Shown: piece by piece, positions 26,412 through 40,498 of the stretch
Layout: every line of letters begins with the position of its first letter
Position numbering within the stretch: position 1 is the stretch's first letter
Assembly: GCA_937128055.1 (NCBI GenBank)
Contig: CAKZMC010000018.1
Span: 1 to 51,115 of the forward strand
Length of the DNA: 51,115 bases
DNA from: an uncultured Actinomycetes bacterium
GTDB lineage: Bacteria > Actinomycetota > Geothermincolia > Geothermincolales > RBG-13-55-18
Direction: 5' to 3'
Position numbers and translations under genes: made by a program
The notes under the pieces: generated by a model
Seen by the model: only the letters and a program-made list of their open reading frames with translations
Databases searched by the model: none
What the model was told of the DNA's origin: nothing

Positions 26412-26800
26412 GAGGGCATCTTAACACACCAACCCTCTCCCATCCCTCTCGCGCACCGGCCCCGTTTTCCCCGTCCCGGCAAGCGCGTTGAAAGGCCCCG
26501 GCGAAAGGTGGGGCGAGCCGCCCCGCCACGCAAGGACCGCCTCAATGCAAGCCCGCGGTCCGCGCAGGCAGCTCGTTGCCGGAGAGTCAAGGGGTGGTGA
26601 CCGGGTGAGGCCAGGGGACGGATTGCGGGTCGAACGGTCCGCGCAGGCAGCTCGTCGCCGGAGCGTCAAGGAGTGGTGACGCGGGAAGCGGTGTTAACCG
26701 AGATCCCGCGCGAGCGCAGGCGCGCCGCGGCGTCCGATAGCTTCGTGTTTTACCCGCGCGAATCTCCCTGGTGGTTAACGCTGCCATGCCGCGAGGCCGG
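26412..26800. other. Intergenic region upstream of gltX with a direct repeat
   Basis: No gene is seen. A ttaagat just upstream of the gltX start is the only -10-like sequence. The main content is the 46-bp repeat pair. Confidence 0.5.
26556..26680. repeat. 46-bp direct repeat pair upstream of gltX
   Basis: Copies at 26556-26601 and 26635-26680 differ at only three positions; both begin cggtccgcgcaggcagctcg and end agtggtgac or gggtggtgac. They are offset by 79 bp. Confidence 0.85.
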
Positions 26801-27883
26801 TCACGGGGTGACGGGGGCGACCTCGATGAGGAGGTCTCCGTCGGGAGTGAATTCCCACTCCACCCTGCTCTCGATGTTGAAAGCCTTCTCGAAAAGCCCT
26901 TGGGCGAGGCCTATGCCCAGCAGGGGCAGGGCCACGTTGGCAATCTTCAGCTGCACGCCCTTCCTGCCCATGCGCAAATACTCCAGCAGACCCAGCCCCC
27001 GCACGGCCAGCTTCTCGCGCATGCCTTCCTCGGTGGTCACTTCCTCCACCGCGAAGAAACCGGATTTAACGAAGCGCCTCTGGGCTTCCACCACCACCTG
27101 GGGTATCATCTCCCCCAGCTCCTCTTCCAGCTCGTCGAATATGGGGTCGATCAAGGCGGGGCCCGTCATTACCATCCGCCTCCTGGTGAGCGCGCTCCTT
27201 ATGGAGCCGTTGGCAAGGTCCCACTTGAACTCCTGCAGCGCCAGCGGCGCTTCGCACCGCGGACATTTCTCCAGCCTGCAGTGGCCTTCCTTGCACTCGC
27301 GGTCCAGGGCCTTCCACAAGAGCCTGCTTTTCAACTCCCGGGGGTTCTCGGACTCATAAATGGTGATGCGGTAGACGCCGGGGGAGGTTTCCTCGTAGGA
27401 GATGCCGGGTTCCCTGCCCACGATGGCCTCGATGGCACCCGCGAAGTTGCCCACGGCCAGGGGAACGGAATAGGGCCTCTCGGCAAGCACGGTGATGTAG
27501 TCGTCCTTCGTGCCCTCGTACTTCACCTCCTCCAGGGTGAGTTTCCCGTAACCCATGGCCTTCCAGATAAGGAAGGTGGAGTCGAACACGAGCGTCAGGT
27601 CTATCTCGCGGTTCCTGATCATCGCCCGCAAATCCTCCGGCACCACGTACTTCATGTACTCCCGGCTGTACCTGCGCGAGGCATCGATAACCAGGTGGCC
27701 TATGGGGATGCCTATGATATCCTCAATGCCCTCAAAAAGGGGGTCGATGTTGCCGCATTCGAAAAACACCAGCCTCTGCCGCTCATCCCTGCGGGGGCGG
27801 ATTATCCCGTTTTCCAGCCACACGTGCTGGCTGCTGATAAACATGGGGGTCCCGCATTCGGGACAGGTATCTATCTCCGCCAT
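26801..27883 (-). CDS. Internally duplicated zinc-ribbon protein, paralogue 1 (uncharacterised)
   Basis: This 360-residue protein has no family I can name. It consists of two tandem copies of one unit, offset by 200 residues. Unit 1 has Cys7/Cys10 (CPECGTP), VWLENGIIR, NIDPLFEGIEDIIG and VIDASRRYSREY. Unit 2 has Cys207/Cys210 (CPRCEAP), KWDLANGSIR, LIDPIFDELEEELG and VVEAQRRFVKSGFF. Both units end in a hydrophobic helix and a two-strand segment (SPGVYRITI; DGDLLIEV). Cys197 and Cys202 may complete a second metal site. No signal peptide or membrane helix is clear. The N-terminal helix-strand pattern vaguely recalls V4R-type ligand domains; that is speculation. Start at 27883 has aggagg 11 nt upstream. 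A paralogue lies at 39425-40498. Confidence 0.8.
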   Translation of the reverse strand: MAEIDTCPECGTPMFISSQHVWLENGIIRPRRDERQRLVFFECGNIDPLFEGIEDIIGIPIGHLVIDASRRYSREYMKYVVPEDLRAMIRNREIDLTLVFDSTFLIWKAMGYGKLTLEEVKYEGTKDDYITVLAERPYSVPLAVGNFAGAIEAIVGREPGISYEETSPGVYRITIYESENPRELKSRLLWKALDRECKEGHCRLEKCPRCEAPLALQEFKWDLANGSIRSALTRRRMVMTGPALIDPIFDELEEELGEMIPQVVVEAQRRFVKSGFFAVEEVTTEEGMREKLAVRGLGLLEYLRMGRKGVQLKIANVALPLLGIGLAQGLFEKAFNIESRVEWEFTPDGDLLIEVAPVTP

Positions 27884-28377
27884 GCCTATATTCCTCCTGA
27901 ATGATTCCTCGTCATCTCGGGCACGCAAACTGAAGCTACGGATATGGGCGCGCACGCTCGTCCGTGATAAGATCCCTTCTCGGCACGGCGCGTCAACTCC
28001 CTTCCATGTGCTCCGCCCCCGAGATTCGCGAGGGATAACCATCGGCAAGCTAAATAATTATAGTGAGGGCAAATGAACATGACAAGGAAGGCAACACCTC
28101 GTTCGCCGCCTTTGGCCGCCTCCGCAATGCACCGACGCCGTCCCGTGGAAGGAAGCAACAGGTGCGCGAAAAGCGAGCGGATACCGGGATGTTCCCTGTG
28201 AAAAACGCCGGCTTCCCGCCCCTTCGCCCCTTGGCTGGCAGGCGAGAGAACCGGCCCCATCTCCAGCACGTACGGCATCACCCACCCGCGGGCAAGGCCT
28301 CGCATCCCGGATAGATCGAGGCCGTCCCGGCTGCCGGGGAGCGCGTGTTCGCCACGCGCGGTAAGCGATGCTGTGCC
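27884..28377. other. Intergenic region holding the paralogue 1 promoter
   Basis: No gene is supported. It contains a near-consensus minus-strand promoter (28057-28085), leaving a leader of about 170 nt. The rest, up to the phoU stop, has no feature I can name. Confidence 0.55.
28057..28085 (-). promoter_or_regulatory. Near-consensus sigma-A promoter of the zinc-ribbon gene
   Basis: On the minus strand TTGTCA (complement of 28080-28085), 17 bp, then TATAAT (complement of 28057-28062): 11 of 12 consensus bases. This separates the gene from the upstream pst-phoU operon. Confidence 0.75.
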
Positions 28378-39424: not shown

Positions 39425-40498
39425 ATGAGCGATGTCGAGAGTTGTCTCGAGTGTGGGATTCCCAGGCAATTCGTGGATAATCACACGTGGGCGGGGGGCG
39501 GTTTTATCGTGCAGAGCAGCAATCGCTCTCACCGCATGGTGCTGATCGAAAGCGACAACCTGGACGGCCTCTTCAGGGGAATCGAGGAGATTATCGATCT
39601 TCCCATCGAGCGCATCGTCATCGAGACCAAGCGGCGCGCTACCCGTGAATATATCGACCGCCTGGTGCCAGACGACCTCAAGGAAAAAGCCATCAACAAG
39701 GAGTTGGACATGAAGGTGATGATCGACGCCAACAACGCCGTGGCGCGCATCATGGGATACGGGGATGTCTCCCTGGTGGGATACCGTTATGAGCGCGACG
39801 ATGACGATTATCTCAAGCAGCGGGTGCGCGAACCCTATTCGGTCCCCCTCTGGTGCGGGGATATGGCCGGCGCCGTGGAGGCCATAACGCGCAGGGACAA
39901 CGACGTGAACTACACGTTCCTGGAAGATGACACCATCGAGATAACCGCCGTACCATCAGAACATCCTCCGCAGTTCCAGGACAGGTTGCAGCTCAGGAAG
40001 TACCCCCTTCGCGAAGGCGACGTGACGCTGGAGCGGTGCGGGAGTTGCGGCGGGCCCTCCGCTCTTGCCTCTTTCGCGTGGCAGCTGGAGCGGGGGGTTA
40101 TCGTGGATAAGGTCACAGGTCGGCGCGTCGCCATGCTGGGACCTGCCTACCAGGAGGCGGTCTTCGACGAGCTGGAGAGGGAGCTGGGCGAGGAGATACC
40201 CCGTGTTATCGTGGAAGCGCAGCGCCGCTTCGTCAAATCCGGTTTTTTCAAAGCCACGGAGATAGGGAACAAGGAGCAGTTCCGGAAGCTCCTCGCGCTC
40301 CGCGGCCTGGGGAACCTCCGCTCCCTCCAGACAAAGAAAGACAAGTTGCGTATGGTGCTGGAAAACCCTGCCATGCACCTCATGATCATCGGCCTCATAC
40401 AAGGATATTTCGAGGTGATCAGCGGTACGGGTTCCAGGGCGGAATGGGAAGTCTCGGACGACGGTGTCCTGAACCTGGAGATCCATGCCGTCTGCTAA
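39425..40498 (+). CDS. Internally duplicated zinc-ribbon protein, paralogue 2 (uncharacterised)
   Basis: This 357-residue protein is a full-length paralogue of 26801-27883. Shared blocks include GIEEIIDLPIERIVIE, REYIDRLVPDDL, IMGYGDVSL, REPYSVPL and GDMAGAVEAI in the first unit. In the second unit they include FDELERELGEEIPRVIVEAQ and RRFVKSGFF. Cys pairs are at 7/10 (CLECG) and 205/208 (CGSCG), so both ribbons are kept, but the extra Cys197/202 of paralogue 1 are not. Each ribbon has only two clear Cys, so metal ligation may need a dimer or other residues. An aaaggagg lies upstream. It is followed 36 bp later by the convergent flippase gene. Function unknown. Confidence 0.8.
   Translation: MSDVESCLECGIPRQFVDNHTWAGGGFIVQSSNRSHRMVLIESDNLDGLFRGIEEIIDLPIERIVIETKRRATREYIDRLVPDDLKEKAINKELDMKVMIDANNAVARIMGYGDVSLVGYRYERDDDDYLKQRVREPYSVPLWCGDMAGAVEAITRRDNDVNYTFLEDDTIEITAVPSEHPPQFQDRLQLRKYPLREGDVTLERCGSCGGPSALASFAWQLERGVIVDKVTGRRVAMLGPAYQEAVFDELERELGEEIPRVIVEAQRRFVKSGFFKATEIGNKEQFRKLLALRGLGNLRSLQTKKDKLRMVLENPAMHLMIIGLIQGYFEVISGTGSRAEWEVSDDGVLNLEIHAVC

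Follow-up and report, generated by a model that had tools for sequence, protein, structure and literature searches.

Domains of the V4R-type fold contain cavities that bind phenols, palmitate or haem, and they dimerise (PMC10933270, PMC10715001). A GxxxG motif in helix 5 is a hallmark of V4R and Bet3, and a core subunit of eukaryotic trafficking probably descends from V4R as its prokaryotic ancestor (PMC2253512). The described systems closest to the protein analyzed here are the V4R proteins themselves (PF02830), including the MopR/PoxR/DmpR sensors and the archaeal V4R proteins, the Bet3/TRAPPC3 subunits of TRAPP, and H-NOX. The first-pass annotation of the window (the whole stretch of 51,115 nucleotides under analysis) had presented one of its gene products (Table 1) as two tandem copies of a zinc-ribbon unit on a common alpha/beta core. 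The two copies on a common core are supported by homology over the whole of both halves, but the name zinc ribbon does not fit the repeated unit, which is better described as a V4R/Bet3/H-NOX-like domain carrying a one-CxxC hairpin on its N-terminal side.

Table 1. Coordinates of the duplicated V4R-like protein, its halves and promoter-like site, and of the second family member in the window
Feature	Position	Strand	Basis or remark
Duplicated V4R-like protein, 360 aa	26801..27883	-	ATG start, AGGAGG ~10 nt upstream
N-terminal half, residues 1-198: CxxC hairpin (C7, C10) and V4R-like domain	27290..27883	-	AF2 model; hhalign to V4R proteins E=1.6e-5
C-terminal half, residues 199-360: CxxC hairpin (C207, C210) and V4R-like domain	26804..27289	-	AF2 model; Foldseek MopR 3.4e-6, PoxR 5.1e-6; hhalign to V4R E=7e-4
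Promoter-like site TTGTCA-17-TATAAT	28057..28085	-	11/12 consensus matches; 1 found vs 0.4 expected
Second family member, 357 aa, 41% identical to the 26801-27883 protein	39425..40498	+	Own ortholog group, 11 genomes

The motifs previously reported as repeated were all recovered at the residues quoted, namely CPEC (7-10) and CPRC (207-210), NGIIR (25-29) and NGSIR (225-229), IDPLF (46-50) and IDPIF (245-249), and ASRRY (68-72) and AQRRF (267-271). Aligned with hhalign on the basis of a 73-member family alignment, the N-half and the C-half matched with a probability of 99.7% (E=1.1e-25, 159 columns), all 20 column-shuffled controls giving E-values of at least 0.09. Moreover, a profile built from C-halves alone recovers the N-halves of the paralogs genome-wide, that of the present protein at E=1.1e-16. 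It is therefore well supported that the duplication is real, old and spans a complete domain of 160-200 residues rather than the cysteine motifs or a zinc-ribbon unit alone. The N-half is the longer of the two, with an additional helix at about residues 83-109.

AlphaFold2 modelled the whole protein with a mean pLDDT of 93 and a pTM of 0.90, which makes the relative position of the two halves look reliable as well, and the C-half alone with a pLDDT of 91 and a pTM of 0.83. Each half of the model consists of the CxxC hairpin, then helices, then a strand-strand-helix-strand-strand arrangement, and the helices packed on one face of a four-stranded antiparallel sheet that define the V4R/Bet3 fold are found in the models and in the Foldseek matches. 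The whole model matches H-NOX, DmpR/PoxR, Bet3/TPC6 and YslB, and the fold matches also include BcsD. Searched on its own, the C-half finds its best PDB matches in the phenol-sensor domains of MopR and PoxR (E 3e-6 to 1e-5, TM 0.59-0.66), and it also matches Bet3 and 2oso, a V4R protein of M. jannaschii; a TM of about 0.6 at 12-15% identity indicates the same fold and a distant relation. Profile alignments of both halves with true V4R proteins from the host's class likewise run from end to end (Table 1; shuffled controls at or above 0.035). At the GxxxG positions of helix 5 (145/149 and 325/329) both halves have G or A, and near helix 2 just one glycine is conserved per half (58 and 257), not a pair. 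It is thus well supported by the models that each half is a complete domain of the V4R/Bet3/H-NOX fold.

That the protein could not previously be placed in a named family agrees with the absence of any Pfam or NCBIfam match to it above cut-off. Sequence searches of Pfam, NCBIfam and the PDB returned only sub-threshold zinc-knuckle or chance matches, those in Pfam being mostly to zinc ribbons such as the zf-Mss51 and Zn_ribbon families. The V4R (PF02830) and TRAPP models gave no match to the protein at E<=10, and no HNOB or HTH match was found in it. Over the whole host genome the V4R Pfam model has 0 matches, while it detects true V4R proteins in related genomes. Those of about 190 residues occur in relatives of the host as adjacent gene pairs (L118/L128, L127/L117, L119/L130, L109/L124), which are perhaps an unfused two-gene counterpart of the fused family.

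The family resembles V4R in its fold, in the succession of helices and strands, in the helix 5 GxxxG and in an end-to-end profile alignment of each half, but differs by two domains in one chain, the lack of a V4R model match and the lack of an attached output domain. Fold and helix-5 glycines are also common to Bet3/TRAPPC3, which works as a dimer, whereas the family looks like a bacterial fused pseudo-dimer, without Pfam match and with many single-gene paralogs. H-NOX is a fold match for the whole model, but the family has neither an HNOB match nor a conserved histidine that could serve as the proximal haem ligand, the best histidine column reaching 74/131. The zinc-ribbon proteins resemble it by a CxxC knuckle in each half, with weak matches that stay below curated cut-offs for the 26801-27883 protein, whereas the single knuckle of each half is only a small addition to a larger domain.

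The cysteines C7, C10, C207 and C210 are conserved in 130-131 of the 131 full-length members, with no further conserved cysteine. One of the two apparent exceptions is a probable start-site artefact and the other an intact ortholog with C10 changed to Gly. After each CxxCGxP come a W and a beta-hairpin, which gives the CxxC units the look of zinc knuckles. V4R-type proteins bind zinc elsewhere, by three cysteines and one glutamate (PMC10715001) or by four cysteines (PMC10933270), examples being MopR and Thor-TRAPPC3. Neither type of site was found among the 131 members, which lack the canonical zinc cysteines (VC, EVEC, CxF) seen in the V4R proteins of their class and bear a CxxC at the N-terminal hairpin instead. 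A C4 zinc ribbon, with its two CxxC knuckles in one ribbon, was not found either, since a single half with one CxxC is unable to form a four-ligand ribbon; with two ligands per half, one Cys4 zinc common to both halves is the simplest reading. The sequences thus suggest that one zinc could be shared between the halves through C7, C10, C207 and C210. Because the V4R model match and the V4R zinc site are both missing, the family should not be filed as V4R (PF02830); a new, duplicated family within the V4R/Bet3/H-NOX fold is the best name for it. Its mode of action is probably that of a V4R-class ligand-binding domain.

Searching the host genome (2.7 Mb) at the protein level gave 23 family matches at E<=0.001 and 24 at E<=10, counts that take in fragments and one frame-broken copy; there are about 20 sister proteins, one of them also in the window. 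Related genomes carry 2 to 37 copies each, and in a phylum-wide sample of 396 genomes the family occurs in 31/31 of the same little-known actinobacterial class and in 0/365 of the others. A relative is also present in JACIXB010000011.1, an Actinomycetota MAG. The plasmids and viral contigs searched contain no relative, so the family does not look like mobile cargo. In a tree of the 131 full-length members, stable ortholog groups are formed, those of the two genes of the window with a support of 1.0 (10 genomes for the 26801-27883 gene); a further group of 12 genomes has a support of 0.12, yet its neighbours are shared. One copy, at G000:C160:37957-38993 (L066 3946-5003), is split across two overlapping frames and is probably a decaying paralog, and another is similarly broken at G019 C3:284051-285102. 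Four consecutive same-strand members lie at G000:C6:6767-11932 (L068), two of them being 70% identical, which represents a recent local duplication. The open literature, most subscription journals being outside the scope of the search, yielded no earlier description of tandem V4R or of V4R paralogs in Actinobacteria. Given its size and the lack of a named entry in the protein-family libraries searched, the family has the appearance of a sensor repertoire not described before.

Upstream, within 100 bp, a neighbour on the same strand was found for 9/120 members against 278/690 background gene pairs, and the median upstream gap is 294 bp against 111 bp, both comparisons being approximate as they rely on a simple gene caller. 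Close same-strand neighbours (<=100 bp) occur for about 8% of members on either side. With so few close neighbours and such wide upstream gaps, members are mostly single-gene units. For the 26801-27883 gene this is also supported by its near-consensus promoter, proposed by the first-pass annotation and retained here (Table 1), with a -10 element at a conserved position, ATAAT being found at the equivalent aligned place in 4/5 orthologs and AAAAT in the remaining one. A leader of about 170 nt (27884-28057, minus strand) is predicted from this site, and its comparison with Rfam matched no known RNA family. A k-mer comparison of upstream regions revealed no clear regulatory motif common to family members, the top 8-mers resembling ribosome-binding sites or -10 boxes. 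An upstream TTG at 28048 was rejected as the start of the gene, the family alignment favouring the ATG at 27883, and a long antisense open reading frame (26771-27904, plus strand) was regarded as merely shadowing the coding strand, homologs and coding score both pointing to the minus-strand frame.

In several genomes the 26801-27883 gene sits between phoU, at the end of the pst cluster, and gltX; the 39425-40498 gene lies between thiolase and flippase genes, an arrangement kept in six genomes. In five genomes (G008, G004, G010, G012, G014; loci L138, L145, L010, L101, L008) a second paralog stands directly downstream of the 26801-27883 ortholog and forms its own group of five genomes (support 1.0); it is absent from this place in G000, G001 and G013. 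No attached effector, DNA-binding or membrane domain was found in the family, and no common neighbour gene supplies one.

Divergence between paralogs is unevenly distributed. When seven ortholog groups were compared for specificity-type positions, i.e. those constant within a group and different between groups, 35 of the top 45 fell in the N-half (p=7e-4), with a mean specificity score of 0.66 against 0.30 for the C-half (p=2e-8), and they were concentrated in N-domain helices 2, 3-4 and 5. Between paralogs the N-half is less conserved than the C-half (0.277 vs 0.327; 149/190 pairs). Within ortholog groups, however, the halves are equally conserved (0.657 vs 0.652), so that the N-half bias is not simply a faster evolution of this half. 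The V4R/Bet3/H-NOX fold has its cavity between the helices and the sheet, and the N-half pattern thus fits a diversified ligand choice combined with a more constant output half, the variable N-domain helices being expected, by analogy with this fold, to line the ligand pocket.

Copy number follows the number of response regulators (rho 0.66, and 0.96 within family f4), with a partial r of 0.36 after genome size (p 0.05) over 30 genomes in which size, phylogeny and regulator number are confounded. The first guess at a function had been a metal-linked sensor or an acyl-CoA/lipid adaptor: the fold is sensor-like, whereas the adaptor gains no support from the few close same-strand neighbours or from acyl-CoA dehydrogenase numbers, whose partial r with copy number is 0.00 once genome size is allowed for. 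The copy-number pattern weakly favours signalling over lipid metabolism.

We propose, with a probability of roughly one half, that the family is a repertoire of stand-alone, pseudo-dimeric intracellular small-molecule sensors that would act on a partner in trans. Two subunits, dimeric in PoxR, MopR and Bet3, would be fused in a single chain as a pseudo-dimer, clasped by a putative Cys4 zinc site to which each half may give one CxxC. The N-terminal domain would form a hydrophobic pocket with a lining that differs among paralogs, so that the ligand, a small hydrophobic molecule, would be a different one for each of the about 20 paralogs, and the C-terminal domain, the constant half, would signal the ligand state, in trans, to a common partner. 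In a fuller version of this proposal, which can be put forward only tentatively, a genome would encode a class-specific and undescribed sensory system of up to 20-37 fused double-V4R-like proteins. Each of these would have a ligand of its own, a Cys4 zinc clasp between its domains and a constant C-domain addressing one partner shared by all.

Among the alternatives, a role in scaffolding or tethering, as for Bet3/TRAPP or BcsD, in which the pseudo-dimers would be bricks of a larger assembly and the paralogs would enter different assemblies, appears unlikely. In its favour, the top fold matches include Bet3 and TPC6, with BcsD also present, proteins of this type function without an attached effector domain, and Bet3-family paralogs make homo- or heterodimers in TRAPP (PMC2253512). 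However, family members are scattered single-gene units without co-transcription, their diversified positions lie in the helices expected around the pocket instead of being even over both halves, and the usual dimer contact could already be provided by the two fused halves. A nucleic-acid-binding regulator, whose zinc hairpins would touch DNA, RNA or RNA polymerase while the V4R-like core serves as ligand pocket, would suit a large stand-alone family with single-gene layout, and binding to nucleic acids or polymerase is common among zinc ribbons; the acidity of the proteins (pI 5.0 here, family median 5.1) and the lack of an HTH match and of a clear common upstream motif in the k-mer comparison make it distinctly improbable. 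The least probable reading is a redox switch, in which the CxxC pairs would form disulfides and report oxidation instead of holding zinc: it accounts for just four conserved cysteines arranged as two CxxC pairs, but the CxxCGxP, W and beta-hairpin resemble zinc knuckles, the weak Pfam matches are mostly zinc ribbons, and C10 is lost in one intact ortholog.

Seven V4R proteins in one archaeon have been termed unusually many (PMC2253512), and we describe here a small bacterial genome with about 20 proteins of two V4R-like domains each, none of which matches the V4R model. If these proteins are sensors, about 1% of the genome would be devoted to a signalling system without known ligand or partner. 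Because one half varies and the other is more constant, the family represents a natural set for studying ligand change in a V4R-type fold.
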